Shown here: one piece after another, positions 8,240-29,058 of the stretch
Position numbering within the stretch: the first letter of the stretch is position 1
Layout of the letters: every line of letters begins with the position of its first letter
Source: a virus
Length of the DNA: 32,337 nt
Virus record (IMG/VR): IMGVR_UViG_3300037115_000027
Span: 1-32,337 of that record
Direction: 5' to 3' (one strand)
Translations under genes and position numbers: made by a program
The notes under the pieces: generated by a model
What the model saw: only the letters and a program-made list of their open reading frames with translations
Database searches by the model: none
What the model was told of the DNA's origin: nothing

Positions 8240-8519
8240 CCCCGTGCAGATATGTACAGCCTTCGAGAAAGCAGCTGATGAACTTCGCGGGAGGGATATT
8301 CATGTTTGGGAAAGCCCGTCGATTGCACCTCCAGGATTCATTGATTTCTGCGCCGGTCAGACGATTTTCTCTGTGTTTGGGACAGATGGAAAGCCCACAG
8401 TTGAAAAAATATTCTATCTTACGGATGGCAACCATGTGCAAGGATTTCCAATAAAGCTATCTGACGATGTCGGAAGTGTCATGGCTTCCGCCGTCGAATT
8501 TTTCAGGGCATCGAGGTAA
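8223..8519 (+). CDS. Hypothetical protein, 98 aa
   Basis: Starts at TTG 8223 with GGAGGATACAGGAAA immediately upstream; GTG 8244 is an alternative. Alternating strands and helices are visible (CTAFEKAADELRGRD, then IFSVFGTDGKPTVEKIFYL), ending in FRASR. It resembles small single-domain phage proteins of unknown function. It lies at the end of the accessory block, with its stop just upstream of the portal start. Confidence 0.55.
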   Translation: MPDSTSPVQICTAFEKAADELRGRDIHVWESPSIAPPGFIDFCAGQTIFSVFGTDGKPTVEKIFYLTDGNHVQGFPIKLSDDVGSVMASAVEFFRASR

Positions 8520-8520
8520 C

Positions 8521-10932: not shown

Positions 10933-10941
10933 GAGAAAACG

Positions 10942-12213: not shown

Positions 12214-12366
12214 TGGTATGATGCGGATGAGCAGCAGAAGCGAACGGATGAAGGCGAGTCTAAAACTCACCGGAGTAGTCCACTAATTCGCGGCAGGGCT
12301 TCCAGCATGGCATACACCCCAGAAGGGTGAGCGCATGAGGATGAATCTTGTAACTGAGGTTTCCCC
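12214..12366 (+). promoter_or_regulatory. Leader of the capsid gene
   Basis: A 153-base non-coding gap, the longest in the late operon between 3063 and 28080. It contains a TATGAT hexamer at 12217-12222 without a clear -35 box, a small hairpin CACCC-CAGAA-GGGTG (12315-12329), and GAGG seven bases before the capsid ATG. A 22-codon frame from 12219 has no ribosome binding site. Such a leader could carry a capsid-specific promoter, an mRNA processing site or a stabilising structure. Confidence 0.35.
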
Positions 12367-13641
12367 ATGGCAATTGCCAATAGTATGCAAGCCCTAGCGT
12401 CCGAGCAGGAGTATGTACGCCCGGAACTCGAAGATTTGTGTTTGAGCGCGTCAGTACTTCGCAAGCGCATCCAGAAGAATACCTCTGTGAAGCCGGTATC
12501 TGACCGCCCCTGCAGAATCCCCACTATGCCGTCTCGTGGCGGCAAGCCCCGTGTCGGCAACATGAATGGCGCTGACATGGGCATTGGTTCCGGCCCGACT
12601 CAGGTTCCCGGCCAGCTGACCACCACCTGCTTTATCCATGCCTTCAGCTACACCCGGCAGGCCGAGTACGCAACCGATTCGGACGAGAAGGCGATTGAGA
12701 ACTTCGCTACGCTCACTCGCTCGATTGCTCCAAAGCTGTTTGCCGACTTCCTCGACATCACGCTTCAGGGTGACGGATCCAACACGCTCGACACCATCGT
12801 TTCGCTGGTAGCCGAGGGTGGCAACACGGTTGGGCTGGTCGTGAACAATGCCAACTTCTTCCTCGACGATCAGGATACCGACGTCTGGACGGCTGTTGGC
12901 GGCGCTTTCGTCACCACGCTGACCGTGCAGGATTCCGACATCCTCTCCAACACGATTTGGCTCACCAACCCTGTTCCGACCGGCACCGTTGCCATTGGAC
13001 AGAAGTTGCTCGTGTCCGGCTCGTCTGGTCAGGCCAACTCTGGCATGTTTGGGCTGCGCTACTACCAGGTCGGCACCAACACCGGCAACTGGATGGGTGT
13101 GCAGCGTTCCGCGTGGCCTGGGAAGTACAACACTCCCTCGGTCGCAGTGAACGGCGCTCTCACTCCGCAGATCGTTCGTGCGCTTCAGACCCAGATGGAG
13201 TTTTCGAAGGGTATGGACAACGATGGCGAAGACTTGGTGGCTCACGCTACCCCGTCTGAGCTCGCCGCATGGGAGCAGAACGCGCTTCTCGTGCAGCACA
13301 TCGACATGGCACAGCTGAAGGGCGATGAGTCCGTCGACATGCTCAAGCGCAAGACACCCTCAACGATTGGCGGACGGGAGTTCCTTCCCAATCCCCGCGC
13401 ACTCCCTGGCTACATCGACTTTCTGACCCTGAAGAATATGTTTCAGATCCAGACCAAGGCCGATGATTTCTACGACGTTGCCGGACAAACGCTCTTCGGC
13501 GTCATCGGAGCAAGCGGTGGTCAGGCTTCTTCGGTGGTTTTCTATATGGTTACAGAATCGCAATTAGGCGCAGTCCAAACGAGAGAGAATGCGTTTGCAA
13601 GCGGCATTGCAATTCCGAGCGGCATCCTTGGTCAGGCATAA
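12367..13641 (+). CDS. Major capsid protein
   Basis: 424 aa, ATG with GAGG seven bases upstream and its own leader. Evidence is the position after the scaffold, a size typical for capsid subunits, balanced alpha/beta composition, and a long beta-rich middle (residues 170-280, NSGMFGLRYYQVGTNTGNWM). The N-arm (ALASEQEYVRPELEDLCLSA) and Asp-rich spine helices (NFATLTRSIAPKLFADFLDI) follow the HK97-fold plan. I cannot prove the family by motif. The last 20 residues are Gly/Ala-rich, as in other head proteins. Confidence 0.7.
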   Translation: MAIANSMQALASEQEYVRPELEDLCLSASVLRKRIQKNTSVKPVSDRPCRIPTMPSRGGKPRVGNMNGADMGIGSGPTQVPGQLTTTCFIHAFSYTRQAEYATDSDEKAIENFATLTRSIAPKLFADFLDITLQGDGSNTLDTIVSLVAEGGNTVGLVVNNANFFLDDQDTDVWTAVGGAFVTTLTVQDSDILSNTIWLTNPVPTGTVAIGQKLLVSGSSGQANSGMFGLRYYQVGTNTGNWMGVQRSAWPGKYNTPSVAVNGALTPQIVRALQTQMEFSKGMDNDGEDLVAHATPSELAAWEQNALLVQHIDMAQLKGDESVDMLKRKTPSTIGGREFLPNPRALPGYIDFLTLKNMFQIQTKADDFYDVAGQTLFGVIGASGGQASSVVFYMVTESQLGAVQTRENAFASGIAIPSGILGQA

Positions 13642-13644
13642 AGA

Positions 13645-14331
13645 ATGAGTGAGAACTTCCAACTCGCGGGTGAGCTCCCCAAGCCGACACACTGGCTAGG
13701 GGAGCCGTCGCCTGCGACCATGAAACGCCTTGGGGGAACCAACCCATACGGCGATCCACTCTTCCGCATCGTCTTCGCGCCGTCGGTGAAGATGCTCTGC
13801 GGTGGTGAGTTTTCAGATGGATACACTGGCTACCGGATACGTCCGGCGCATCGGCATATTGGCAGCAAATGGATCATGGAGAAGTGGATTTCTGGATGGG
13901 ATTCTACATTCATGAGCCCAGAGCAATATGATCTGAAGTTCCGCGATCCTTTTACGGGACTAGTTTCGACGGGGCCATATCCATCCAAAGGCTCTTACTT
14001 CCATTGCCACACATTCGAGTATTCGCAGCCTGGAGATGGTGGAATCGACACCATCATCGCGCTAGTGAAGAAAGCCAAGCTGAACGACCCTACAGAGAAC
14101 GCGCGGGCGATCAGGGCAACACGCGAGGCAGAAGAGAAGGACGCGCAGAACAAGCGATTCGACAAGATCAAAGACCTGATGCCGGTAGCCGGTATTCGTG
14201 CAGCAAACATCGGCGGTCACGTCAAGGTAACCAAGAGCGCACCAACCCCGAAGACGGCGAATGAACTTGGTTTGCCAACTCGCGGAGCAACACAGATTCG
14301 ACCGGAGACACTACATTATGCCAACAGCTAA
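13645..14331 (+). CDS. Head-associated protein, unknown
   Basis: 228 aa, ATG three bases after the capsid stop. Residues 1-130 form a compact domain with Trp/Tyr/Gly motifs (SDGYTGYRIRPAHRHIGSK, WDSTFMSPEQYDLKFRDP). A charged helix (about 140-185, NARAIRATREAEEKDAQNKR) and a basic tail follow. It is in the slot where podoviruses carry head-completion or decoration proteins. No family is recognised. The next gene starts within its last codons. Confidence 0.6.
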   Translation: MSENFQLAGELPKPTHWLGEPSPATMKRLGGTNPYGDPLFRIVFAPSVKMLCGGEFSDGYTGYRIRPAHRHIGSKWIMEKWISGWDSTFMSPEQYDLKFRDPFTGLVSTGPYPSKGSYFHCHTFEYSQPGDGGIDTIIALVKKAKLNDPTENARAIRATREAEEKDAQNKRFDKIKDLMPVAGIRAANIGGHVKVTKSAPTPKTANELGLPTRGATQIRPETLHYANS

Positions 14332-15109
14332 TCATCTTGGAATGCGTACCATCGCCGACGAGCATATCGAGCGCAAGCTATCCGTGGCCCGTGGCCGCGC
14401 CGTCCCTCCCGTACTCGCAGAGATTGAAGAACTGAAGAAGAAGAAGGTTCACGTCTTCAATGTTGGGCCGTGGCCGATGTTGGTCAACACCGGATCGACC
14501 GGATCGTATCTTATCCCCGGCTGCCCCGAGGGCACGAAGTTTGTTGAGCTCCTGATTGATGATGGAGAAGGCAATCGGATTCCGCCCATCAGCTACATCA
14601 TGGACGAGCTTTACCCTCAGTCCGAGGATGAGTACCGCAGGCTTCAGGAGCGCGGCAAAGACTTCGCGCGGTCGATGATTGGCCTTGGCCGTGGACAAGC
14701 TCCCGGCAACGCGCTGACACACCAAGGCGTATTCGTGGCCGAGGGTGATAGACCTACGTCGGAGGAGATTGAAGACGCACATGCGAAGCTGAGAGCCTAC
14801 TGCGAGGGCGTCGTGCGACAGATTGCCGACATCTACACCACCGACCGTAAGGCGTTTGGGATGATCGTTCGCCCGAAGGTGCATTTTGTCGCTGCGCACT
14901 ATCTGAACCTCGACAACCCCGTAGATGCGCCTTGGATGACTTCGGCGGCTCCCAAAGGACGGACGAAATGCAAGATGTGCGGTCGCGTTGTCGATCCCGA
15001 CGTGGCAATGTGTGAAGGTGGACACATCGTCAATCAGGAGCTCTACGTCGCCGCAATGCTTGAGCAGGAGAACGTCAAGGCTGCAACCCAACCGAGAGCG
15101 AGCAAGTAA
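14318..15109 (+). CDS. Head/neck protein with C-terminal zinc ribbon
   Basis: 263 aa from ATG 14318, with GGAGA nine bases upstream. A helical start (HIERKLSVARGRAVPPVLAE) is followed by a beta domain (residues 35-80, VFNVGPWPMLVNTGSTGSYL) and helices. Residues 218-236 form a zinc-ribbon-like site: C218-K-M-C221, C232 and H236. It may hold the portal-adaptor interface or bind nucleic acid. No family recognised. Its TAA stop directly abuts, in frame, the TTG that opens the next gene. Confidence 0.6.
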   Translation: MPTANHLGMRTIADEHIERKLSVARGRAVPPVLAEIEELKKKKVHVFNVGPWPMLVNTGSTGSYLIPGCPEGTKFVELLIDDGEGNRIPPISYIMDELYPQSEDEYRRLQERGKDFARSMIGLGRGQAPGNALTHQGVFVAEGDRPTSEEIEDAHAKLRAYCEGVVRQIADIYTTDRKAFGMIVRPKVHFVAAHYLNLDNPVDAPWMTSAAPKGRTKCKMCGRVVDPDVAMCEGGHIVNQELYVAAMLEQENVKAATQPRASK

Positions 15110-15904
15110 TTGCCTATTCCCGCAATGACCGCGGCACCCTACGACACGCTTGAGAGCGCATTGAATCTCGGGCGTGTGCGGATGGGTGACGCGATCGCGT
15201 CTTTAGGCGGAGACGTGCTTACAGATTTGCAGCCCTTCACTAACACGATGGTCAATTCCGCGTGGCGGAAATTGCAGGCGTATCTCGCCAACCTCGGTTA
15301 CTCGCGGATGAAGAAGCCGGTCGTGCTGTATGGGCTTACTGCCGTGACTAGCTATGATCCCGCTTCGTGGACGGCGCTAACGTGGAGCAGCTTTTTCAAT
15401 GGGTCAGGCTACGACATCCCGCCTACATCCCCTGTTCTCCCGCAAGACTTCATCCTTCCCTTGAAGATTTGGGAGCGGCAGAATGGAAGCAATGCGCAGT
15501 TTATCCCAATGGAGCAATGCGTTGAGGCGTTGCCGGATGCGAGGAAGGGGCCATTCAACTCCTACTGGTATTGGGAGAATGACACGCTCTACATGCCAGG
15601 GTCGATCTATTCGATGGATCTGCGCCTTGAGTATGCCGCTTATCTCTCCGACTTCGCTGCGAACGTGGACGGCACAGTCATTGGAGCGCAGCCGGTTCCT
15701 ATCATGCGGGCGCAAGACGCGCTTGCCAACTACTTCTGCGCGGAAGCTGCGTTAGGCAGAAACGACGTAGACGCAGACCCTTTCACCTTGAAGGGCGACC
15801 AAGCGGCAAGGATGATCTTCAACCGTGAAGTTGCCATGAAGCAAAGACGGCCAGTTTCAAGGCGGAGCTTTTCATCGCATCGCGCATCGTATGGAATTTT
15901 CTAA
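15110..15904 (+). CDS. Adaptor/tail-tubular-A-like protein
   Basis: 264 aa starting at TTG 15110; ATG 15125 is the alternative and neither has a strong ribosome binding site. The helical N-terminus (TLESALNLGRVRMGDAIASL, then FTNTMVNSAWRKLQAYLANL) and Trp/Tyr-rich middle fit the ring adaptor between portal and nozzle. The C-terminus is basic (MKQRRPVSRRSFSSHRASYG). Position between head genes and the nozzle-like gene matches T7 gene 11. Assignment rests on synteny and helical pattern, not on a confirmed match. Confidence 0.55.
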   Translation: MPIPAMTAAPYDTLESALNLGRVRMGDAIASLGGDVLTDLQPFTNTMVNSAWRKLQAYLANLGYSRMKKPVVLYGLTAVTSYDPASWTALTWSSFFNGSGYDIPPTSPVLPQDFILPLKIWERQNGSNAQFIPMEQCVEALPDARKGPFNSYWYWENDTLYMPGSIYSMDLRLEYAAYLSDFAANVDGTVIGAQPVPIMRAQDALANYFCAEAALGRNDVDADPFTLKGDQAARMIFNREVAMKQRRPVSRRSFSSHRASYGIF

Positions 15905-15912
15905 GGAGAACT

Positions 15913-16287
15913 ATGGCACTCGCTTTCACTAATCCAAAGGTAATCGGCTATCCCGACGTAACGCAGAATCAGGAAATCGTCGAGATGATTATGACGCTTT
16001 CCGGGAACTACGGCGGCGCTGCAACTCATGGCGATACGGCGAACTTCTCAGGGCTGAACTTTCTCAAGTCTCGCGCGATTCCGACCCGCGTGGATATTTG
16101 GGAGATGCCTCCGGCTGGTACGGCTCCTTCGTTTTACGAGGGCGTTTACTGTCCCGGCACGACTCAGGCCAACGGCGTGATTTCCTTCGCTCTCGCTGGG
16201 GTTGAGTACACGGAAGCTGCAGCCTACGCTGGCGTTATCGCAGCAGCGACTTTCCGCGTCTTCGCATACTTCCCGCTGGGCAAGTAA
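15913..16287 (+). CDS. Small beta-rich virion protein
   Basis: 124 aa, ATG with AAGGAG five bases upstream. Beta-type pattern with Gly/Ala/Ser/Thr, for example GNYGGAATHGDTANFSG and YTEAAAYAGVIAAATFRVF. No membrane segment. It resembles other small head- or tail-decoration proteins in this operon. The next gene starts directly after its stop (TAA-ATG, same frame). Confidence 0.6.
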   Translation: MALAFTNPKVIGYPDVTQNQEIVEMIMTLSGNYGGAATHGDTANFSGLNFLKSRAIPTRVDIWEMPPAGTAPSFYEGVYCPGTTQANGVISFALAGVEYTEAAAYAGVIAAATFRVFAYFPLGK

Positions 16288-19200
16288 ATGGCAATCAGTC
16301 CGACAGGCGCGGTTCCTGTACCCCTTTCGGTTTTCGGAAGCTGGGTAACAGAAGTCGCGCCTGAATCCGTGCCAGAGAATATCTCGCCGGACTGCCAAGA
16401 CATATCCTTCGCGCCGGGGCAGGTTGGCTCTCGTCCCGGGCTTCAGGTCGTCTTTACGCCTGCACTGGAAGCGAACGCAACTATCGTCTACGGCAAGTCG
16501 TTTGTGCTGCCTACGGGCGCTATTCGGAATCTCTATCTCAGCTCTACGGGCAACTTCTACGTCGAAGACCTAACCAACGCGCCGGGCGTTGCGACGGTGC
16601 TGTTTACCACCACGCCCGGAAGCTACTGCAAGTCGCTCACGCAGTTCGGGCGCGAGTACATTGCCATCTCGGACGGATTACATGGGGCGGAAGTTCCATT
16701 GCAGTACGACGGGACTTTGCTGCGGCGGTATACCTGCGACGGCCCCGGCGCGCCGCCGACAGTTATTAGCCTCGCGCTTCCGCCGGCACAGATGGCGGCT
16801 ACGGGGAATACGCTCACTCGCAACAATAATCAGGTCATTGCGAATACAGCAACGCCTCACGGCTTGCAAGTGGGGTACGAGGCGCAGATTTCCAACGTGC
16901 CGGACTCCAACGCGACATCGGTAAACCAGACGAACGCCTCCAGCACGCAAACTGCGGCTGGCGACTGGCAGTATGTTGGAATACAGTACCGCACCATTAC
17001 AGAGCCGGTAACGACGGCGCTCAGCGATCTGGTGTTCAACGGTTTTGGCTTCTCCATCCCTTCGACCGCAACCATCTTGGGCGTGGTCGTTAGTGCCGTG
17101 CTCGTGGCAGAGAGTGGCACGGCTTCGACACTTTCGCAGGTTGCGCTTTGGCGTACAGGCGCACAACTAGGGACACTCAAAAGCCCAGCAACGGCGTTTA
17201 CGACTACCCTAACAACGGAAACTTATGGCAGCGCGGCGGATATGTGGGGCGCTGCGTTGACTCCGGCGATCGTCAACGATCCAAGCTTCGGCTTTGCGAT
17301 GGCTGTCGCTACGGACGCTACCCGCGTATTCATCGGACAGCCGTTTCAGATGACGGTGTATTACACGCTTTCTGGTTCGGGAACGTTCGCGCTCATCGCC
17401 TCCATCGTCATCAACAACGAGTCGAACCCCGGACTCGCGCTGGTAACGACGACAGCGCCTCACGGCTTAGCGCCGGAAGAGTATGTCTCGATTGTCGGCG
17501 TAGAGCCGGGAGTGATTGCAAACATCTCGGCGGCGCAGTGGTCGTCTGGGGTAACGACGCTGACAACCACGACTCCGCACGGGTTGACACCCGGAAGTTT
17601 GGTGCAGGTTACGGGGGTAACAACGTCAACAACCGGAACCGCGTTTAGCTTCGATGGCACATTCACGGTCGAGAGCGTTCCGGGCCCGAATCAGGTAACT
17701 TACGCGCAGACGCCAATCACCGCGACCGATCCTGACGTGATAAACGCCACATCCACAACGGGGCAAATTGTCCTTTCGTGGCCGATTCCCGATAATACGC
17801 CAACGCCAACCTATTTCGAAGTACAGTCCGCGCCGACGCCTACGACGTTCCTCATCCCCATCACCTACTCGGATGGAACGTGGACGACGGGCACGGTTGG
17901 GTTTATCTGGGAAGGCATCTTCTATGTGACGGCGGTGCTTTCCCCGACGCAGTTCCAATATCAGCAGTATGGACCAAACGGTGCGACGACGGCGGTTGGT
18001 ACGGTCACGCCTTATGGACAGGCGGCTCCGGGACTTCACTTGATGCAAGTCTTATGGCTGACTGACCAAGGAGCAATCCCAGCGCCGTCACCATTCGTGA
18101 CACTCATTGCAAATGGCGGCCAATATGTCGAGGTTTCGGACATCCCGATTGGGCCATCGTACGTGACGGGGCGCATCCTGGCGTTTACTGGTGCTCAGCC
18201 GAACGTTCCGGGCGAGCTTCCGCCGTTCTTCTACATCCCGTCGACGCCACAAGTTGAAGGGCAGATCGTCGGCACGGCTACGCAGATCAACGACAACACG
18301 ACGACCTCGATTGTGCTGGATTTCTCCGATAACACGCTCTTCGCGGCAATCGGCATCAGCATCCCCGGAAACAATCTGGTCGAGCAGAACGTGCTGGATA
18401 GCGCGTTAGGGTTTGGCGCGTATGAATCTCGCCTGCTAACTTGCGGGCAGCGAAACATCATCAACAACATGGTCAACATGGGCTTCGGGGGTGGAGCATC
18501 CTACTTGACTCCTACCGTTCCGCTGGGATGGAATGTCCACGCCCCCAACCCTGACGCCATTCTGGTGCCGGGTCGATTCGGAGGCCAAGCATTGCAGCTT
18601 GTCTCTGGAACACTACTCGACCCCGGAGCCGTGTTTTCTCAGTCATTCTTCGAGGATTGCTACGGCGATCCGATTGCTGAAGTCAACACCCCGTACACCG
18701 TCCGTTACTACCTGGCAGGCGCAGGCACTTTTATAGCGACCATTACGAGTGCATCTACAGGGTTCTCGGCGACCGCAACCATCACATTTACGAAAACAGG
18801 ATGGTACGAGGCAGACTTTAGCCTTCCAACTCCTGCAACGATCCCTTCAGATATATTCTACGGAATTGTCAGCAAGGCTGGAACGTTCACTGCATCAGAA
18901 GGCTCCATTATCAACGCCCAGAAGCCATATACGGATACTCTGGCGTGGGGATCATACATCGACAACCCCGAGAGCATCGACGGCGTAACGGGGCAGTTTG
19001 GGCCAGAGGATGACACCGCGCAGATCATGGATTTCGGCATCTTGCGCGACACGCTATATATCCTGACGCGCGCGCCATCTGGAAGACTTCACGAGACGAC
19101 GGGCAGCGGAGTAACCGAGCCGTCGGGCTGGGCGGTCAACGAAGTTGCGGCTGACTGCGGAATACTCTCGGCTTTCGGGTTGACGCACTCGCAGGCAGAC

Positions 19201-20085
19201 GACACGACCGCGTCTGGTGGAGATAACTGGTTTGCGTGGCCGACCGAGGGCGGCGTATCAATCTTTGGTGGCGGAACCCCTGAGAAGATCAGCCAGGAGA
19301 TTCAGCCCAACTGGTATGACCCAACGCGGGCAAACGCTGCTATCCAGATCAACATGGCAGCGGCGAAGACTATTTGGGGGATCAATGATCCGGTGCAACG
19401 GCTTTTGATGTTTGGGCTTCCGATTGGAGCTGCTACCGCACCAAGTAAAGTTTATGTGCTGAACTATCGCAACCTAAACTCCTCGGCTGCGATTGCAGGA
19501 TCGCCGCCATTCCACCCCTCGTTTGCCGGAAAGTTGATTGCCACAGACAATAGCCGGAAGTGGGCTCCATGGAACATGACCATCAACAATGTCGCACTGA
19601 TGTACCGCGGGGCCGGCGCGTTGAATCTGGTGCTCTTTAGCGGCAATGGCAACACGCCTGGGGAGTCTGGAATATGCAACGCCTACACGTTGAATCCTGC
19701 AAAACTCACAGATGACACTTACGGCCTCATCTCCCCATATTATGTGACATATTTCTTCCTCGATCCCGAGAAGGCTCAAATGCTTCAATTGAAGGGGTTA
19801 CGCATTCTGTTAGCCTACTTGCGAGCGTACATCCAAGGGACGGGTAATGTGACGTTTAGTTACTACCCTGATTCCTTATCGAATTTATGGCCTCTAGATA
19901 CGGTGAGGGCGCTGACTCCAGTATTCTTCGACCGCGAAACGGGCGGCGGGCAATGCACAGGAGATCGCATCGCTATCAAGATCGCTTCATCGCCGATTGT
20001 CGGGACAGACAACGGCTTCGTTATGACGCGGCTTACGGCGTTCTTCAAGGATGCTCGACTTTTGATTAGATCGGCGGCGAAGTAG
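16288..20085 (+). CDS. Large tail nozzle-like protein (T7 gp12-type)
   Basis: 1265 aa. The first 60 residues (SVPENISPDCQDISFAPG, then QVGSRPGLQVVF) resemble the entry of podovirus tail-tubular-B/nozzle proteins, where a list of inputs is followed by an xRPGL motif. The body is nearly all beta. Three copies of a T(T/A)PHGL motif stand at about residues 189, 390 and 429, each followed by a G-x-V-x-I-x-G/V strand; this motif is common in phage tail proteins. Later segments repeat similar strands. Position between adaptor and internal virion genes fits a short-tail nozzle. Length is above the about 800 aa of T7 gp12, so extra domains are inserted. Confidence 0.65.
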   Translation: MAISPTGAVPVPLSVFGSWVTEVAPESVPENISPDCQDISFAPGQVGSRPGLQVVFTPALEANATIVYGKSFVLPTGAIRNLYLSSTGNFYVEDLTNAPGVATVLFTTTPGSYCKSLTQFGREYIAISDGLHGAEVPLQYDGTLLRRYTCDGPGAPPTVISLALPPAQMAATGNTLTRNNNQVIANTATPHGLQVGYEAQISNVPDSNATSVNQTNASSTQTAAGDWQYVGIQYRTITEPVTTALSDLVFNGFGFSIPSTATILGVVVSAVLVAESGTASTLSQVALWRTGAQLGTLKSPATAFTTTLTTETYGSAADMWGAALTPAIVNDPSFGFAMAVATDATRVFIGQPFQMTVYYTLSGSGTFALIASIVINNESNPGLALVTTTAPHGLAPEEYVSIVGVEPGVIANISAAQWSSGVTTLTTTTPHGLTPGSLVQVTGVTTSTTGTAFSFDGTFTVESVPGPNQVTYAQTPITATDPDVINATSTTGQIVLSWPIPDNTPTPTYFEVQSAPTPTTFLIPITYSDGTWTTGTVGFIWEGIFYVTAVLSPTQFQYQQYGPNGATTAVGTVTPYGQAAPGLHLMQVLWLTDQGAIPAPSPFVTLIANGGQYVEVSDIPIGPSYVTGRILAFTGAQPNVPGELPPFFYIPSTPQVEGQIVGTATQINDNTTTSIVLDFSDNTLFAAIGISIPGNNLVEQNVLDSALGFGAYESRLLTCGQRNIINNMVNMGFGGGASYLTPTVPLGWNVHAPNPDAILVPGRFGGQALQLVSGTLLDPGAVFSQSFFEDCYGDPIAEVNTPYTVRYYLAGAGTFIATITSASTGFSATATITFTKTGWYEADFSLPTPATIPSDIFYGIVSKAGTFTASEGSIINAQKPYTDTLAWGSYIDNPESIDGVTGQFGPEDDTAQIMDFGILRDTLYILTRAPSGRLHETTGSGVTEPSGWAVNEVAADCGILSAFGLTHSQADDTTASGGDNWFAWPTEGGVSIFGGGTPEKISQEIQPNWYDPTRANAAIQINMAAAKTIWGINDPVQRLLMFGLPIGAATAPSKVYVLNYRNLNSSAAIAGSPPFHPSFAGKLIATDNSRKWAPWNMTINNVALMYRGAGALNLVLFSGNGNTPGESGICNAYTLNPAKLTDDTYGLISPYYVTYFFLDPEKAQMLQLKGLRILLAYLRAYIQGTGNVTFSYYPDSLSNLWPLDTVRALTPVFFDRETGGGQCTGDRIAIKIASSPIVGTDNGFVMTRLTAFFKDARLLIRSAAK

Positions 20086-20652
20086 ATGCTCAATGTCCGC
20101 AATCTCGCGTGGCTTAGAAGTTTGCAGATAGAGGGGATTCCCGACGCTGGAGCGCGCTTACACGAGATCATCTCCGACATGGCGAAGGGGATGAACACGC
20201 TCGAGCAACAGACGAATAGCAACTTCAACGGTAACCCCGCGCCGCCGCCGCCATTGCAGGCGGTCACGGTAACACCTACGTCGGTCGGGCATCACGTCTC
20301 CATCAACCATGCCGGAGACTACTATCGCGGCACAACGTACCATGTTGAGTCCGCGGACAATCCACACTTCAGCAACCCGTTTCCCACATATACAGGGCCG
20401 GGGCGAGAGATTGATCTTGCAACCGGGAACCAGAAACTCTATTTTCAGGCGTTTGCTTCCTACCCCAACAGCGGCAACACGACGCCAGTCTTTCATGGCG
20501 GCACGACGCCAACAGCGGTGACGGGCGGAGTGGCGACAGCACGCGGAACCTCGCAGGGATCAGGAACGGGTAGGCCGGGCGGCGGCTTGAGTGGCTACGG
20601 GCCAGTTCCATACACAGGATCGAAGCCGCCAACGAGGGCCAATACAAAATGA
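20086..20652 (+). CDS. Tail-associated protein with FN3-like domain
   Basis: 188 aa, ATG directly after the TAG of the nozzle-like gene and in the same frame. A helical N-terminus (ARLHEIISDMAKGMNTLEQQ) precedes a PPPP linker. Residues about 58-130 form an FN3/Ig-type beta domain (VTVTPTSVGHHVSINHAGDY, TYHVESADNPHF, QKLYFQAFASYP). A Gly/Thr-rich, probably disordered tail ends it. A needle, collar or fibre-attachment role is plausible. The next gene overlaps its stop (ATGA). Confidence 0.6.
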   Translation: MLNVRNLAWLRSLQIEGIPDAGARLHEIISDMAKGMNTLEQQTNSNFNGNPAPPPPLQAVTVTPTSVGHHVSINHAGDYYRGTTYHVESADNPHFSNPFPTYTGPGREIDLATGNQKLYFQAFASYPNSGNTTPVFHGGTTPTAVTGGVATARGTSQGSGTGRPGGGLSGYGPVPYTGSKPPTRANTK

Positions 20653-21017
20653 GAACGCGCCCATTGGAATATAGAGATTTACCAATACTGGAAGCGATAT
20701 ACAATGAGCTAGATTTATCGTTTGAAGATGGCTTCCCGAGAGATTTGCAGCACGCCTTTGTGGTAGTGGATGACGAAGATCGGCCTTTCATGTTGGCGGG
20801 AGTAAAGATGGTGCCTGAACTGGTTATGATTTGCGACCAAAGACCGCATGTGACCGTCCGGCTGAAAGCGATCGCGCTGCTACATGAGACGTTGCGGGAG
20901 AGGTTTCCGGCAGGCGCGTTCTGCTTCGTATCTCCTAGATTTGGTAAGAGTTTTATTGCAACAATGGTGAAGCGTTTCAAGTGGCAAAGGACGTGGGAAG
21001 GATTTCGGGTGCGATAG
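20649..21017 (+). CDS. GNAT-like protein (T7 gp13-type position)
   Basis: 122 aa, ATG overlapping the previous TGA. The start has the pattern of N-acetyltransferases: RPLEYRDLPILEAIYNEL, then a loop, then a strand with a small catalytic-type turn. Later strands (AFVVVDDEDRPFMLAGVKMV) and the tail FKWQRTWEGFRVR fit a shortened GNAT. A protein of similar size and place, between nozzle and internal core genes, occurs in T7 (gene 13). An acetyl-CoA loop (Q/RxxGxG/A) is not evident, so it may be structural. Confidence 0.55.
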   Translation: MRTRPLEYRDLPILEAIYNELDLSFEDGFPRDLQHAFVVVDDEDRPFMLAGVKMVPELVMICDQRPHVTVRLKAIALLHETLRERFPAGAFCFVSPRFGKSFIATMVKRFKWQRTWEGFRVR

Positions 21018-21572
21018 ATGCCTAAGGGCGTAGCGCAACAGGCGGGAAATAATTCGGCGACAGCGCAGGGTTTGTCGAGTAACCTGACGGGCAATGCGGC
21101 TGGTATTTATGGCGGGTTGGAGCCAACGTTGCAGGCGGAAGCCAGCGCGCCAGGCGGCTACACGCCGACGCAGATGGCCGACATGAACACCGCGGCGCAG
21201 CAGTCAGCCGGCGGCTCGCAGGCGGCGACGGCTGGGGCTGGCGGCCTTTACGCGGCGCGCACAAAGAACGCAGGGGCAGCGCAGAGCGCGATCGGAGCTG
21301 GTACGCGAGCGGCAGGCGCAAATCTATCGAAGGCTGCAGTCGGGAATCAGGTACAGAACGCCGACCTCGAGCAGCAGCAGAAGCAGGAAGGGTTGAAGGG
21401 GCTTGGCGGACTGTACGGAACCGACCTGAGTGGCGGTGAGAGCGCATTAGGGCTTTCTAATTCCGCTCTCAACACCGAAGCGCAGGCAGACGAAAACAAT
21501 CCTTGGATGAAGTTGCTACAAACGGGGATGTCTGGGGCAGCTACAGCGGCAACAGGGAATCTGGGCAGATAA
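21018..21572 (+). CDS. Internal virion/ejection-like protein 1
   Basis: 184 aa, ATG directly abutting the previous TAG, same frame. Ala/Gly/Gln/Ser-rich helical sequence (LSSNLTGNAAGIYGGLEPTL, AAVGNQVQNADLEQQQKQEG) with almost no aromatic residues. This composition and place (after the gp13-like gene) match the smallest T7 internal core protein, gp14. Its tail is Gly/Ala-rich and may insert in the host envelope at ejection. The assignment rests on synteny and composition. Confidence 0.5.
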   Translation: MPKGVAQQAGNNSATAQGLSSNLTGNAAGIYGGLEPTLQAEASAPGGYTPTQMADMNTAAQQSAGGSQAATAGAGGLYAARTKNAGAAQSAIGAGTRAAGANLSKAAVGNQVQNADLEQQQKQEGLKGLGGLYGTDLSGGESALGLSNSALNTEAQADENNPWMKLLQTGMSGAATAATGNLGR

Positions 21573-21573
21573 C

Positions 21574-23037
21574 ATGAGCACTCAACCGATGACGAACCCG
21601 CTGCTCAATCCTCAAGTGCTGAGTCAATTCGCGCAACAGGCAGCACAATCCGCGCCGCCACTCATGCGCCCGACATCGCCGGATGCATCGCCAGTCCCTT
21701 CGATTGCGGCACCCCCGCCGATGAGCGCCGGACAACCTCCCACGCTGCCATCTCCGATCGCTCCGCAAGTTACGAAGGCTCCTTCACAGACAGACATCGA
21801 CAAGACAGAGCTTGCGCGGAAGGTGAACACTGGATCGGGCATCTCGCAGATTGCTGGCAAGGTGGAAGGCGCGATGCCTAACCACCCATTCATCGGAAAG
21901 CTGCTCGGTGGGCTGTCGCAAGGCTTAGCTACGTTGGGCGACGTTGGGCTTCGTGCGGTTGCGCCAGCGGTCGACTTGGCTCTCCCTGGCACGTCGCTGC
22001 ACCATCTTTCGGACTTGCGGCAAGGGAACGCACAGGTAGCGCACGATGAGGCGGCGCAGACGGCGGAGGCAGGTCAAGCTAAGGATCAAGCGCAGACGGC
22101 TGGGCTAGTTGGAGAAAACGCTAATCAGCCACAGAAGGCTGCAGATGAACACGCATTATCGGTCGCGACCGCTGCGAATCTTGCGTCTGAAGCAAAGGAT
22201 CGTGATGCTGCTGCTGCTAACCCAGCCCTAGCGGTTGCCTATTCTCATGCTGTAAACAAAGCCATCAATGAAGGTCGCGACCCATCTAAAGACCCGATTG
22301 TTTCGCAGTTGTCGGATGCGATGACGTCGATTCAGCCCGGACAGAACAAGACTCCGAAGATCACTTATCAGACCGTAGATGGCCCCGACGGGAAGCCGCA
22401 TGTTATGGCGATGGACGAGGCTGGGAATCAAGTCAAGGATGAAGGCGTCCATTATGAGCGCCCAATGTCCGTAAACGTGAACGCTGGCGATGCGGCACTC
22501 GACCGCGAGACGAAGCAATATGGAACCTCCTACTCTAAAGCTAACGACGCCGGGAACGCGCAGCTAGAAAAGATTGCTGATGCTCGTAGCATGATAAACG
22601 GTAATGCGGAGTCGCAGGCGCTTGGGCTTCCGAAGGTGCTGACGGCGCTAGTCTCTGGAGCTGGGTCTGGCGTTCGGATTACGCAAGCTGAATTGAATAT
22701 GATTGGAAAGGCTCGCGGAATCTCTGGAGACGTAGAGGGAACGATCAATAAGTGGGCTGGGCAGGGATCGCTTTCGAAGGCCCAGCAGCAGCAGCTTACT
22801 CAAATTCTAGACGACGTAAAAACTCGCATCATGCAGAAGCAGGCTATCGCCAACAGTGCTCTAGATACGATCAATGGCGCATCCAGTCGCGGCCAGATTA
22901 TCCAAGCCGACAAGGAAGCGCGCCAGAAGCTCAATGATTACGAACAGCATGGTCATTATGTCGGACAGTCGGTTACGCTCAAGAATGGCGGGACGCATGT
23001 GGTTACAGCGGTTCATCCAGATGGGAGCTTCGACTAA
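21574..23037 (+). CDS. Internal virion/ejection-like protein 2
   Basis: 487 aa, ATG two bases after the previous stop. Residues 1-90 are Pro/Gln/Ala-rich and disordered. The rest is helical and Ala/Gln/Lys/Asp-rich, with a likely coiled-coil stretch at about 145-215 (AQTAEAGQAKDQAQTAGLVG). The C-terminal 60 residues end in a strand domain (GHYVGQSVTLKNGGTHVVTA). It sits in the gp15-like slot. Its stop overlaps the next start (TAATG). Confidence 0.5.
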   Translation: MSTQPMTNPLLNPQVLSQFAQQAAQSAPPLMRPTSPDASPVPSIAAPPPMSAGQPPTLPSPIAPQVTKAPSQTDIDKTELARKVNTGSGISQIAGKVEGAMPNHPFIGKLLGGLSQGLATLGDVGLRAVAPAVDLALPGTSLHHLSDLRQGNAQVAHDEAAQTAEAGQAKDQAQTAGLVGENANQPQKAADEHALSVATAANLASEAKDRDAAAANPALAVAYSHAVNKAINEGRDPSKDPIVSQLSDAMTSIQPGQNKTPKITYQTVDGPDGKPHVMAMDEAGNQVKDEGVHYERPMSVNVNAGDAALDRETKQYGTSYSKANDAGNAQLEKIADARSMINGNAESQALGLPKVLTALVSGAGSGVRITQAELNMIGKARGISGDVEGTINKWAGQGSLSKAQQQQLTQILDDVKTRIMQKQAIANSALDTINGASSRGQIIQADKEARQKLNDYEQHGHYVGQSVTLKNGGTHVVTAVHPDGSFD

Positions 23038-24404
23038 TGGCAACCGGGAAATACTCAGCGGCGGATGTTGCTCCCCAACAGCAGGGAGCCTACTCCGACG
23101 CGGACGTGCAGGGGAATGGAGTCACGCCAACGACCGATGCTCCCCCTCAGTCGATACTGTCTCGGGGATTGAACGCTATCCAGAATACCGGCATCGGGGC
23201 GGCCAAGGGTTTACTCCACACCGTCTCAGGTAGCGATAACTGGGCACGGCAGCATCTTCCCGCCGTCCTAACTAATTCCAACATGGGATTCGGGCCTCCT
23301 GCGAATGAACAGCACGTGCAGCAAATGGCTACCCCCAACGGCCTCGCGCAGAAAATCGGATACGGCGGCGAGCAGGTTGGCGAGTTCATGGCTCCTGGCG
23401 GCGCTGAGGCGGGGGCTGCTACCAAGTTATCCGAGTTTGCCCCAAAGATCGCGCCGCTGATTCGCATGGGAACCTCTGCGCTTGGCGCTGGTGCGGTGAA
23501 TAAATTGCAGGGAGGGTCATTTGGCACAGGTGCAGCGATGGGCGCGGGTGGTGCCGCGCTCGGCGAAGGACTCAAAGCGATGGCTCCGAATATGGCGGAA
23601 ACTGCTCTCCATATCGGAAAGACAGACCGCGCCGGTGGGCGGGATGTAGGACGCGCCGCGCTGGACTATACGAGCGGGATAAACCCAGCCAAGATTGGCA
23701 AAACCGCAAACGAGAGTATCAGCAACCTACAAAGCAAAGCTCTCTCTGCGATTGAGCCTGGGAAAACCATGTCGCTCTTTCCCGTTCGTCAGGCTGGCGA
23801 GGCAGGAATGTCAGATATCAATGCCGAGAACGTTCCTTCACTCATCAATGCAGGTCGTGGATTGCAGGACGTGCTGAATACGAGCCACGCAACGGGTGAG
23901 GCTATTCCCGAGATGGTTGGCCCATCCCAGGCGATGGCACTTCGGAGAGGGTTAGGGCGCTATCTCCCCGAAGGGACTTGGAACCCGGAGACTTCCAGCC
24001 GCATCGCTCCACTGCGTAATCAGATGTACGGCGCGATGAACAACCAGATCGGCGACGCATTCCCGGAGATACGGGAGGCAGACAAGCCCGTTACTAGCTT
24101 GATTCCAGTAGCGCGCCACGCTGAAAGTCTGAGCAGGGAAGCTCCACTCATGCAGCGCGTCGCTGGACGTGTAGCAGCGCGAACGGGTGCCCTGACAGGG
24201 GCTGGAATCGGTGGATATGCGGGATACAAAGAAGGTGGAATGCCCGGCGCGATTGTTGGCGGATTGACTGGCGCAGTCGCTCCAGAATTGATCGCAGACC
24301 CAGCCGGCCAGATGGCAGCGGCGCGCTTGATGAACAAGGCTTCTGGGCTACGTCCGCTAGTGGGTTCAGCACTTCAACTGACAAGAAAGAAGGATGACCA
24401 GTGA
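23037..24404 (+). CDS. Internal virion/ejection-like protein 3, glycine-zipper
   Basis: 455 aa, with GGAG about ten bases before the ATG. Gly/Ala-rich stretches (residues 150-175, GAGAVNKLQGGSFGTGAAMG) and near residues 385-420 (GALTGAGIGGYAGYKEGG, MPGAIVGGLTGAVAPELI) form glycine-zipper membrane-inserting helices, as in bacteriocin-like and ejection proteins. The middle is amphipathic helix. It is in the gp16-like slot but much shorter than T7 gp16 and has no visible transglycosylase motif. The next gene starts inside its last codons (GTGA). Confidence 0.55.
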   Translation: MATGKYSAADVAPQQQGAYSDADVQGNGVTPTTDAPPQSILSRGLNAIQNTGIGAAKGLLHTVSGSDNWARQHLPAVLTNSNMGFGPPANEQHVQQMATPNGLAQKIGYGGEQVGEFMAPGGAEAGAATKLSEFAPKIAPLIRMGTSALGAGAVNKLQGGSFGTGAAMGAGGAALGEGLKAMAPNMAETALHIGKTDRAGGRDVGRAALDYTSGINPAKIGKTANESISNLQSKALSAIEPGKTMSLFPVRQAGEAGMSDINAENVPSLINAGRGLQDVLNTSHATGEAIPEMVGPSQAMALRRGLGRYLPEGTWNPETSSRIAPLRNQMYGAMNNQIGDAFPEIREADKPVTSLIPVARHAESLSREAPLMQRVAGRVAARTGALTGAGIGGYAGYKEGGMPGAIVGGLTGAVAPELIADPAGQMAAARLMNKASGLRPLVGSALQLTRKKDDQ

Positions 24405-24556
24405 TTATCATCGGATTCGCTCTGCTTCTGCTGATTCTTCGCGTGCTGTACTCCGTTGCCGAGATTTATTTTGAGCACGACTGGCCTCGCAGCACATGGA
24501 AGGGTTTGGCTCTCTCGGCTATTTTGTTTGGTTTCTGCATATCGGTATTCGCATGA
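24401..24556 (+). CDS. 51-aa two-TM micro-protein, holin-like
   Basis: GTG 24401 with AAGGA about seven bases upstream; stop TGA 24554-24556. Two hydrophobic segments (IIIGFALLLLILRVLYSV and WKGLALSAILFGFCISVF) are joined by a short polar loop (EIYFEHDWPRST). It overlaps the ejection-like gene at its start and the next gene at its stop (ATGA). The build resembles a small class II holin, but a holin-like gene also exists at 29055. It may instead aid spike export or membrane docking. Confidence 0.65.
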   Translation: MIIIGFALLLLILRVLYSVAEIYFEHDWPRSTWKGLALSAILFGFCISVFA

Positions 24557-24825
24557 AGCGCATTATTCCATTTCTCTTCGCTCTACTGCTTCCCGCTATG
24601 GGTCATGCGCAGTATAGCCGATGGGATTCAACGGCGACGACCGTAACCACACTGAGCAATCTGACAACAGTTGCGGGTGGAACGTTCGGTACAGCGGCGT
24701 TTCAAGCCACAAGCTACTTCGATCTCGCGGGGGCTGCGGCAACCTCAGGAAGCATTGTGGCAACAACCACTGTTATGTTGACTATTCAATCAAAGACGCT
24801 GGACAATGGATGCCAATGGCAATGA
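24553..24825 (+). CDS. Short secreted paralogue of the tailspike head
   Basis: 90 aa from ATG 24553, overlapping the upstream stop. Residues 1-19 are a Sec signal peptide (MKRIIPFLFALLLPAMGHA) cut before Gln20. After the cleavage site the first ten residues (QYSRWDSTATTV) match the start of the mature tailspike (QNVRWDYAATTV) at seven of the first twelve positions or more. The rest (TSYFDLAGAAATSGSIVATT) is a small beta strand set and ends with NGCQWQ. Either a truncated duplicate of the spike head or an assembly partner. The spike lies 36 bases downstream in the same frame. Confidence 0.65.
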   Translation: MKRIIPFLFALLLPAMGHAQYSRWDSTATTVTTLSNLTTVAGGTFGTAAFQATSYFDLAGAAATSGSIVATTTVMLTIQSKTLDNGCQWQ

Positions 24826-24861
24826 GCAAGCTTGCAGTTTAGAGTAGTGGAGAGGGAAACG

Positions 24862-27800
24862 ATGAAACGTGCAATTCTTTTGATTTTAGGGATGCTGCTT
24901 CCGGTTTTCGCACACGCGCAGAATGTGCGCTGGGATTATGCCGCCACGACCGTAACTGGCTCTGGGCAGTTCTTGCCGGTGTTAGCGATTCCTGGCGCGG
25001 GCGTGACGTTCTACTCTTGCTCGTCGGACTTGCTAACGACCTGCACGACGCCTGCGATAACTTACACATCGACGGGGGTTACATGCCCATCGACGGCGCA
25101 GGTTGTGCTTCAGCAGGCCGATACCTGCACAAGCGCAGCTGATTCTTCTGGCAACTTCGGCGGATGGTTTACGACAGGGATCTACGCGTACACTCTTACT
25201 GTGGGGACAGCTACCTATGGCCCTTACATATTCAGCATTGGCGGCGGAAGTTTCCCCGCCTCTGGCTTGACGGGCACAACGCTTCCCTCCACGATCACGA
25301 GTGCGCCAGGAATCCCCTACGTCTCCACCGCGCAGACAACTCCGCAGACAATGGCAGGGCCGCTGAATGTACCTGCGGTCAACCAAGTCATCTATACCTC
25401 TTCAACGCTCTCCGTTGCCTCGGCTTGCACATCCCTTAATGGAGCCGCGGGAACGGTCGTGATTACGGGATCGCAGACTATAAGTACCACCACAATTCTT
25501 CCGCTCAACTGTGGACTAGATGTGAAAAATGGTGGTTCTCTAACAGTAGCGAATGGTCAGTATTTACAGATACAGGGACCGTTCTCGGCTGGCCTATATC
25601 AAGTATTCTTCGGCGCTGGCCCTGCGTTTTTCTACGGTGGTGCAGGATCAACTCCGCGAGTTTATCCGCAGTGGTTTGGGGCAATGGGAAACGCAAAGGC
25701 GGGAGGATTCCGTTGCACTGCCGGAAGTAATGCAATAATCGGAGATTCACATATTCCGTGGGTGATTGGCGATCCAATTACGTTGATAGGAGCAGGAACT
25801 GGAGGAGCTAATTTAGTCACTACGGTGACAGGGATTACTGGTCCCGGCTATCCAGAAACAGGATTTACGACCGCCGCTAACTGTGCTACGACCGTTTCAA
25901 CAACCAGCATGGCATACAATGTGGACGACTATCCTGCGTTGGCAAAGTGGACGCGGAGCGCAAGCGGCGGATCGCCAAACGACGCTGAACACGCTTACAC
26001 CTATGGTTCACAATATGGGCCAAGCAAGTTGTATCTGCCAAAGGGAGCGTACAACGCTTGCTCTGGATCAATTCCATTCTATGGTGGCACTTCATTTGAG
26101 GGTGAGTCTGCCGTAGTCACCGGCAACGCGATGATTATCCAGTGCAATCCTGCGATTCCTGCCGCAACGCTGGCTGCTGATAACTTCCGGCCAGATGCGA
26201 ATGTAGTCCCAACGGCATCTACCGTTGCAGAGGATCAGGGTAACGGTGTTTCTTTCTTCACGAATCTTGGTTTTTATAGCAGCTTTACATCAGTTATCTC
26301 ACCCGCCCATCCTTCCGGGCTCCAGACTCCAGACGTAGGCGCACTGCAATTCCTGAATGGAAGTAACACAAACAGCGACATCAAAATCCATAACTCCATC
26401 TGCGAGAATATAAGCGGAACCTGCTTTATGATGGGCTTTGTTACGAATACGGTTGGCACGTTGACTTCCGGCGCAACGTCGATGACCGTAGCAAATGGGT
26501 GGTCACTTCTAAATGGAATGTCGATTAACATTGTGGGTGCAGGATCGGCGGGTGGACTTTACACGGGCACCATCACATCCGCAGGGCGAAGCAACACCAT
26601 CACGTTCACCCCCGCGACAAGCACAACCGTAACCGCCGCGCAGGTGATGCCTGTAAAAGATAGTGAACAATTTAACTTGTACGATTCCGAGTCTGACGTT
26701 GCTGTCTGGTACTTGGCGGAGGGACAGGGAAACGTCACAGGCGGAGTAAATGTTAATGACAGTGAAATCTTTGGGATGAACTCAGGTGCGATCAACTTTC
26801 ACTCCACTGCCCCTATGTCTGTTGGTTGGTATAACAATACCTGCAACGGATGCGGATCATGGGGAGGATACCCAAATGTGCTGCTTGGCTGGGCTATCTA
26901 CGATAAAGATGGAAGCAACTCCCATTCAGCTACTGTTGAGATTGACGATTCAATCTTTGTGCCCTATGATGGAATCCCGATTCTAGTTGGTGAGTCCACA
27001 GGCGGAGTTTACGCAAATGGTATGTTTGCCCTGAACATGAGCAATGACCATTTCTACGGAGTTGAAGGCTCTAGCGGAACAGCAAACGGAGTCCAGAGCG
27101 TCGAGAATAGCTACATCGACATCAAGGGTTCAACCTTCGAGTCTGTCTTAGGTTTGAACCCAGGGAGCAACCTTTCCTGGTTCTACGCCCCAATAAACGC
27201 AAACCAAGTATCCATGATAGACGTTTGCTGCAATGCCGCCACGTTGATTCATGGCAATGTGTCAAACATAACAATGATTGACCCAAGCGGAAACGTCTCA
27301 GGAACATACTTCGATTATATTCGCGGCTTGAATCTTGAGTTTATGCCCAACAACGGGACATTTGGGCCGATAACCAAGCTTGGAAGTTTTCAAGCTAGCG
27401 GAGGGAACAACTACTTTGGGACTGACATAGCTACACAACCACTTACGCCGTCAACTGGAGCAGCTTTAGGAAGTGCTAACACTTTTACTGCCAATCAAAC
27501 AATCGGCTCGTCAACCGCGGCAGCTAATGGATATTATATTGGAGCTTTGAATGGTGCCTCTGAAATTCAATTATGGGAAACAGGAAGTGCAGGCGTATCT
27601 GGATTAAGTGGTATATTCCCCAATACTGACCTTTTGTTAGGATTTGGTGCGAATGGGACAGTGATAGATTCTTACTTCGGGCCGGTCAAGTTGGTTGTTG
27701 GGCCTGGCGCAACGCCTATAGAAAGCTGCACAGCCTCGACCTGCACATTTTCAGGCTCACTAGCCAACGCCAACGGTACACTCATTCCCTCCACGGCCCT

Positions 27801-28080
27801 CGGCTATCAGGGTCCAGCGGCGGGCTATGTGCAGCTTTCGGTCAATGGTACAACAGGAACGATCACTGGCACTGCTCTAACGGCAACCTGCAATTCAGGC
27901 ACGGCGAGTGTGACAGGCGCGATCGTAGGGCATCCTGTCGCAGTGAGCAGCACAACGGGTGCAGATGTGGGCGGTACGTTCAATCTCCGGGCATCCGTAA
28001 CGGCGACAAATACGGTTACGGTTTATGTCTGCGGAACCGGCACGCCAGCGAGTCTTGCGTACAATGTCACGGTGTTTTGA
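24862..28080 (+). CDS. Tailspike with signal peptide and beta-helix
   Basis: 1072 aa, ATG 24862 with GAGAGGG seven bases upstream. Residues 1-19 are a Sec signal peptide (MKRAILLILGMLLPVFAHA) before Gln20. A Cys-containing head domain (about 20-140) follows. The VYPQWFGAMGNAKAG motif at about 266-280 and DDYPALAKW at about 354 open a right-handed beta-helix of the pectate-lyase superfamily, with LYLPKGAYNACSGSIPFYGG near 390, running to about residue 830. A Gly/Thr-rich C-terminal region follows (residues 860-1072), with repeat-like strands (SVNGTTGTITGTALTATC). Spikes of this fold bind or cleave surface polysaccharide. A signal peptide on a virion spike is unusual. Confidence 0.8.
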   Translation: MKRAILLILGMLLPVFAHAQNVRWDYAATTVTGSGQFLPVLAIPGAGVTFYSCSSDLLTTCTTPAITYTSTGVTCPSTAQVVLQQADTCTSAADSSGNFGGWFTTGIYAYTLTVGTATYGPYIFSIGGGSFPASGLTGTTLPSTITSAPGIPYVSTAQTTPQTMAGPLNVPAVNQVIYTSSTLSVASACTSLNGAAGTVVITGSQTISTTTILPLNCGLDVKNGGSLTVANGQYLQIQGPFSAGLYQVFFGAGPAFFYGGAGSTPRVYPQWFGAMGNAKAGGFRCTAGSNAIIGDSHIPWVIGDPITLIGAGTGGANLVTTVTGITGPGYPETGFTTAANCATTVSTTSMAYNVDDYPALAKWTRSASGGSPNDAEHAYTYGSQYGPSKLYLPKGAYNACSGSIPFYGGTSFEGESAVVTGNAMIIQCNPAIPAATLAADNFRPDANVVPTASTVAEDQGNGVSFFTNLGFYSSFTSVISPAHPSGLQTPDVGALQFLNGSNTNSDIKIHNSICENISGTCFMMGFVTNTVGTLTSGATSMTVANGWSLLNGMSINIVGAGSAGGLYTGTITSAGRSNTITFTPATSTTVTAAQVMPVKDSEQFNLYDSESDVAVWYLAEGQGNVTGGVNVNDSEIFGMNSGAINFHSTAPMSVGWYNNTCNGCGSWGGYPNVLLGWAIYDKDGSNSHSATVEIDDSIFVPYDGIPILVGESTGGVYANGMFALNMSNDHFYGVEGSSGTANGVQSVENSYIDIKGSTFESVLGLNPGSNLSWFYAPINANQVSMIDVCCNAATLIHGNVSNITMIDPSGNVSGTYFDYIRGLNLEFMPNNGTFGPITKLGSFQASGGNNYFGTDIATQPLTPSTGAALGSANTFTANQTIGSSTAAANGYYIGALNGASEIQLWETGSAGVSGLSGIFPNTDLLLGFGANGTVIDSYFGPVKLVVGPGATPIESCTASTCTFSGSLANANGTLIPSTALGYQGPAAGYVQLSVNGTTGTITGTALTATCNSGTASVTGAIVGHPVAVSSTTGADVGGTFNLRASVTATNTVTVYVCGTGTPASLAYNVTVF

Positions 28081-28542: not shown

Positions 28543-29058
28543 ATGGCAGTATTTGATGTTTCCTTTGCGTGGATGATGGCGAACGAAGATCCATCCTTCG
28601 CCTACAAGACTGTTCCCGACGATCCACCGGGCGCACACGCCATCTCAGGGATCAACTCGCACGCCTTTCTTGCGCAGTTTGAGGCAATCAGCGCCATCCC
28701 CCAAGCCCAGCGTGGGCCAGCTGTGCAGAGTTTCTATCAGGTGAACTTCTGGAACCGCTGGCTTGCCCAGATCACTTCCGACGGGGTAGTCAAGCGAGTG
28801 TTCGATGAGGCAGTCAATGGTGGTGCAGGGACGGCTGTCCGCATCCTTCAGGCGGCCGTCAATACCCTGACGAACTACAGAATCGGTGTAGATGGCAACT
28901 GGGGGCCAATGACGGTGGCTTCAGCGAACGCATGCGACCAGCTTTCTTTGACGGGGGAGTTTATTCAGTTGCGGTGCGCGCACTATCGTTCCATCGCCGC
29001 GTCCAACCCCAGCGAAGCGAAGTATCTACCTGAATGGCTAGCGAGGGCGCAGAAATGA
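28543..29058 (+). CDS. GH108-type endolysin (lysozyme)
   Basis: 171 aa, ATG with AAGGAG five to six bases upstream. Residues 4-60 match the N-terminal GH108 domain (FDVSFAWMMANEDPSFAYKT). Glu15 lies where the family has its catalytic Glu, and DDPPGAHAISGIN (about 26-38) is the family's D-P-G-G-A-T-N-x-G-I region with some replacements. Residues about 85-170 match the C-terminal peptidoglycan-binding domain common to these enzymes (GTAVRILQAAVNTLTNYRIG, VDGNWGPMTVASANA). It cleaves the glycan strand of the host wall at lysis. There is no signal peptide, so it needs a holin. The next gene overlaps its stop (ATGA). Confidence 0.85.
   Translation: MAVFDVSFAWMMANEDPSFAYKTVPDDPPGAHAISGINSHAFLAQFEAISAIPQAQRGPAVQSFYQVNFWNRWLAQITSDGVVKRVFDEAVNGGAGTAVRILQAAVNTLTNYRIGVDGNWGPMTVASANACDQLSLTGEFIQLRCAHYRSIAASNPSEAKYLPEWLARAQK

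Follow-up and report, generated by a model that had tools for sequence, protein, structure and literature searches.

The spikes of tailed-phage virions normally fold in the cytoplasm, and late joining of spikes is known from P22, the tailspikes of which bind spikeless heads in vitro. To our knowledge, virion assembly in tailed phages is regarded as taking place entirely in the cytoplasm. Phage exports reported so far are endolysins and proteins of unknown function. The tailspikes of Vid5 (gp10), ECO1230-10 (Orf17) and their relatives are tail proteins in which the head fold also found in the spike described here is followed by an enzymatic body. Unlike the present spike, the same-fold spikes of enterobacterial and pseudomonad phages are without a signal and without the matching cysteine pair (13 of 13 checked); their annotated starts lie at the head in 12 and 24 bases inside the head in Phynn. 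WceF of Pantoea stewartii resembles the proposed spike in being a tailspike fold that crosses a membrane with a cleaved signal; however, it is bacterial, carries a Tat signal, serves the cell's own exopolysaccharide and lies outside a phage cassette (PMC7949094). Signal-peptide proteins of Porphyromonas gingivalis phages use the general secretion of the host and expose an N-terminal Gln, as is predicted here, but their functions are unassigned, their hosts are Bacteroidota and they are not tailspikes (PMC10367356). The lytic tailed phage fOg44 passes its own protein Lys44 through Sec before lysis, although this is a lysis enzyme and not a spike (PMC6116005). A paper on a Bacteroides phage describes the DGR target proteins of phages as being without detectable signal peptides. 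Searches of the open-access literature yielded no account of tailspike export by a tailed phage and, as far as this literature shows, the export route proposed below for a spike is undescribed among tailed phages.

The stretch of DNA analysed as a whole (the window) is the record of an uncultivated virus, 32,337 bases long, with a podovirus-type gene cassette. The cassette holds a small terminase subunit, a large subunit (PHROG 979), and portal-like, scaffold-like, major capsid, nozzle-like, ejection-like, spike and endolysin genes, the names other than large terminase and endolysin being based on gene order and distant resemblance. The major capsid protein gave a weak NCBIfam match (capsid_maj_Podo), and no PHROG family matched the portal, scaffold, capsid, nozzle and ejection-like proteins (window 8467-24404; soil podovirus lineage). 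The gene at 24862-28080 is read here, with a probability of about 0.6 and on sequence grounds, as the tailspike of an Acidobacteria podophage that would be exported by Sec, oxidised in the periplasm and joined to virions at lysis. The features of the window are as follows.

6931-7569, plus strand: signal-peptide protein (VKKSLFAILGLLVCSSFALAQ) between the terminase and portal genes
16288-20085, plus strand: nozzle-like protein of 1265 aa, anchor of the lineage search
24553-24825, plus strand: short open reading frame with its own signal peptide (MKRIIPFLFALLLPAMGHAQYSRWD) and the motif QxxRWDxxATTVT, as in the start of the head
24849-24856, plus strand: Shine-Dalgarno sequence GGAGAGGG of the spike gene, read from the sequence
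24862-24918, plus strand: predicted signal peptide, residues 1-19 (MKRAILLILGMLLPVFAHA), of a character shared by 78 of the 80 distinct homologous heads
24919-25251, plus strand: mature spike head module from Gln20 with Cys53, Cys61, Cys75 and Cys89, a beta domain like carboxypeptidase-regulatory domains and tailspike heads (alignment A5, AlphaFold, Foldseek)
25018-25044, plus strand: codons of Cys53 and Cys61, putative disulfide pair 1, co-present or co-absent in 37 heads
25084-25128, plus strand: codons of Cys75 and Cys89, putative disulfide pair 2, co-present or co-absent in 37 heads
25252-28080, plus strand: linker, presumed beta-helix body (YPQWFGA...KLYLPKGAY motif) and C-terminal domains, with 16 further cysteines
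28543-29058, plus strand: endolysin (PG_binding_3, Glyco_hydro_108-like) without a signal peptide

The endolysin implies lytic release. The two further secreted proteins that the first-pass annotation had placed in the same operon are present as the signal-peptide reading frames at 24553-24825 and 6931-7569, and with three signal-bearing genes in the window its view of export as a theme of the cassette holds. Beyond the QxxRWDxxATTVT motif the product of 24553-24825 resembles none of the collected sequences. Homologues of 6931-7569 (in L004-L028, L132, L139 and L154) occur with a signal (about 10) and without one (about 12), the latter beginning near the mature position; the contrast in cysteine content is less clear among them than for the spike.

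The spike open reading frame encodes 1072 aa with the N-terminus MKRAILLILGMLLPVFAHAQ. The sequence 5' of the ATG at 24862 reads AGTGGAGAGGGAAACG-ATG and includes the good Shine-Dalgarno sequence. The preprotein consists, in order, of MKRAILLILGMLLPVFAHA, the four-cysteine head and a long variable body, with the predicted cleavage site between MKRAILLILGMLLPVFAHA and QNVRWDYAATTVTGSG. The signal-peptidase site is predicted at A17-H18-A19/Q20, and the leader has the features of Sec and signal peptidase I substrates (positive n-region, hydrophobic core, small-x-small site). Tat export was rejected, the leader (MKRAILL) being without an RR motif. Alternative starts at TTG 24832, ATG codon 11 and GTG codon 22 showed, by eye, no comparable ribosome site. 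The claim of a signal peptide under a good ribosome binding site was thus borne out by GGAGAGGG, by MKRAILLILGMLLPVFAHA in front of Q20 and by the survey of the family given below, while the internal true start also considered in the first-pass annotation finds no support: inspection revealed no ribosome site inside the gene, the character of the leader is kept in dozens of genes, and relatives with a longer leader show start features of their own (see below).

A search for close relatives with the whole spike gave short or distant matches only, and relatives were therefore sought via the capsid, the head and the nozzle. The capsid protein retrieved 26 related contigs, 12 of which have a homologous spike head, directly preceded in 12 of 12 by a hydrophobic export-type leader; the nozzle protein retrieved 80 contigs. 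The head profile retrieved 80 distinct head genes, a mix of phage contigs, prophages and acidobacterial chromosomal genes. A home-made caller scored 71 of these as signal-positive, and 78 were positive after the misses had been read by eye; the misses due to start or boundary were L045, L050, L085, L088, L092, L094 and L135 (L045 and L050 belong to a single gene). On homologues of fifteen other cassette genes the same caller was positive in 3 of 609, a background that rules out a chance hydrophobic start. The difference (Fisher p about 1e-82) is indicative only, since related rows are treated as independent. A first null, comprising all non-head reading frames in the phage loci (78 of 781 signal-like), took account of all starts within the first 40 codons and included many real exported fibres; the homologue-based null is preferred for these reasons. 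The mature start follows the pattern small-x-small/Gln in 76 of 79 heads, the exceptions being L141 and two signal-less heads. In the signal-like reading frames of two acidobacterial genomes, which are noisy sets, Gln is also the commonest +1 residue (24% and 31%). A reminiscent preference, the Bacteroidetes Q rule, has been reported for secreted proteins encoded by phages (PMC10367356). A head search in the class around Terriglobus yielded mostly short partial matches, many of them real head-bearing secreted genes. Export of the spike, as predicted from a signal kept across a diverged family, is strongly supported. Exported spikes or fibres also occur in tandem within one cassette (L100 at 11619-17848, L121, L131), and several of these tandem genes are unrelated to the head family yet carry signals.

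Nearly identical heads bear unrelated export leaders, which argues that export itself is kept. The heads of L035 and L050 are almost the same, but L035 carries a plain signal peptide and L050 a two-helix leader (ending CYERDWPRRTAPYLLAVLFLIVCASGFG before the Gln); L055 (plain signal peptide) and L127 (two-helix leader) show the same contrast. Selection thus seems to act on export and not on one leader sequence. In relatives with the longer two-helix leader the start either has its own Shine-Dalgarno sequence, as in L041 with AAGGAGG, or overlaps with the stop codon of the gene before it, as in L127, L130 and L133; translation of this leader is therefore probably real. Its basic loop would, under the positive-inside rule, be cytoplasmic and the spike outside. 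A conserved form of this leader (YSLxExxxERDWPRSTWRG plus signal) was observed in L127, L130, L133, L038, L041 and L036, on heads of different clades, as if it recombined independently of the heads.

The window spike contains 20 cysteines (1.87%), exactly four of them in the head. Among its neighbours the nozzle-like protein contains 0.63%, and the scaffold and the products of 21574, 23037, 21018 and 20086 contain 0%. Spike reading frames longer than 400 aa have a median of 1.85% cysteine and the fifteen other cassette genes medians mostly at or below about 1.4% (higher in p14261, 2.37%, and two endolysins, 1.73%); tests on cysteines count related rows as independent and are indicative only. 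Across the 37 aligned heads each pair is complete or absent, never single: both pairs occur in 27, pair 1 (C53, C61) only in 6, pair 2 (C75, C89) only in 3 and neither in 1, the last being L062, the signal-less spike of prophage L068. Signal-positive heads always have at least two cysteines, and the two signal-less heads (L062, L156) have none. Periplasmic folding with disulfides, suggested in the first-pass annotation, gains support from this paired gain and loss coupled to the signal, and the prediction of disulfides in the exported head is well supported. The same coupling tells against the idea that the leader is not used for export, the spike folding in the cytoplasm, as is normal for virion spikes, and the segment acting as a hydrophobic docking peptide or being skipped via an internal start. 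Given also that the cleavage pattern is kept in 76 of 79 heads, that leaders are replaced by unrelated export signals and that no internal ribosome site was seen in the window, this is very improbable.

The two signal-less heads differ in their placement in the tree. L062 has as its sister L061 of prophage L067, which has the signal and pair 1 (support 97/86); provided that the ancestor of the clade already had the signal, the L062 branch lost it at the same time as the cysteines. The two prophages are 74% identical in the nozzle and 82% in the adaptor, with neighbouring proteins within 72-82%. The L068 spike, preceded by AAAAGAGGAGCT, starts with ATGGCAGGCATTCGC, in a position equivalent to the first residue after the L067 cleavage site. 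Single-head scans with the L067 and L068 types gave no match in viral contigs. L156 forms a clade with the five same-fold spikes of enterobacterial and pseudomonad phages put in the tree (support 99/92).

The predicted head of the window spike (AlphaFold pLDDT 83.9) matched D5LGZ1 and the Vid5 and AAS21 spikes in Foldseek with probability 1.00; these are the tailspike N-termini of Escherichia phage ECO1230-10 and Pantoea phages Vid5 and AAS21. Alignment of the head profile with the profile of those N-termini (hhalign) gave an E-value of 1.9e-5 and a probability of 78%. A PDB fold search with the predicted head returned nothing significant, and the sequence profile of the head against the PDB gave a weak tail spike match only (9vyg, E 0.04). 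The window spike itself matched no Pfam, PHROG or PDB model, and its full-length prediction reached a pLDDT of 30. The body is variable among relatives, and only L030 aligns far into that of the window spike; with the same head, L040 has a Pect-lyase_RHGA_epim body (E 1.6e-13) and the L067 spike a body of the GDSL hydrolase type. A conserved head with an exchangeable body is the layout of tailspikes and receptor-binding proteins. The gene had been described as a beta-helix spike: the head stands, the spike assignment is probable, and the beta-helix part, which draws on the YPQWFGA...KLYLPKGAY motif and the L040 body, is less firm. Since the head fold is that of virion tailspike heads and a signal-less homologue occupies the same cassette in a closely related prophage, the protein would be a real virion spike, and we infer its attachment to virions from fold, synteny and module swapping. 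The head alone is insufficient to prove a virion role, because chromosomal secreted homologues of it exist (L102-L104).

Such bacterial homologues, and the presence of three signal-bearing genes in the window, would suit a captured host secreted gene carried as lysogenic-conversion cargo with no role in the virion. However, the head gene is situated inside the structural cassette or closes it in many contigs, and in some of them it overlaps with the ejection-like gene before it; this origin is improbable. The chief rival, itself somewhat unlikely, is that the spike is exported and never joins the virion, serving as a secreted exopolysaccharide-digesting enzyme or adhesin, a receptor coat or mask, or a decoy, whether following infection or produced by a prophage. 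Signal and disulfides fit this, as do the signal- and cysteine-bearing chromosomal homologues beside glycosyltransferase-like genes (L102-L104), the stand-alone gene of Terriglobus (L057) and the precedent of WceF, an exported tailspike-fold enzyme of an exopolysaccharide operon (PMC7949094). Against a secreted depolymerase or decoy, no second gene with an obvious role in receptor binding was seen in the phage contigs inspected, docked spikes have this layout of conserved head and variable body, and the homologue at the same place in the sister prophage has no signal.

In the preferred reading, that of an exported virion spike, the protein would be synthesised as a preprotein, pass through Sec and be cut by signal peptidase before Gln20. 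Oxidation in the periplasm would turn at least the two head cysteine pairs into disulfides, while in the cytoplasm virions without spikes would be filled. Once the cell has been opened by lysis proteins, folded spikes would meet the virions and dock via the conserved head; this requires that exported spikes stay soluble in the periplasm until lysis. The conserved export signal, the coupled paired cysteines, the head fold and the place in the virion cassette are read from sequence, and actual cleavage, disulfides, docking and its timing are the steps that would follow from them. The chances are even that virion assembly is split in this way, with heads and nozzles made in the cytoplasm, disulfide-bonded spikes in the periplasm, and the two joined at cell opening, as a trait that is switchable via signal and cysteines together. 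If true, docking would be late and extracytoplasmic, infectivity would have a redox requirement, and the phages would have a means of building disulfide-stabilised spikes for soil. Prophages L067 and L068 form a testable pair, closely related tails of which one has an exported spike and the other does not.

Heads of the clade of the window spike occur in Terriglobus albidus (L057) and in prophages of the same family (L067, L068), so that the host of the window is most likely an acidobacterium. In L057, an exported spike-like gene that stands alone and another long exported gene, of fibre-like type (9998-13378 and 14604-17951), lie on opposite strands, with no obvious phage structural genes near them. 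L102, L103 and L104, from acidobacterial chromosomes, carry genes for secreted proteins that share the head and the cysteine pair. Their neighbours are glycosyltransferase-like and membrane-transport-like genes of the exopolysaccharide type, and these genes may be spikes that became domesticated, or the origin of the exported head.
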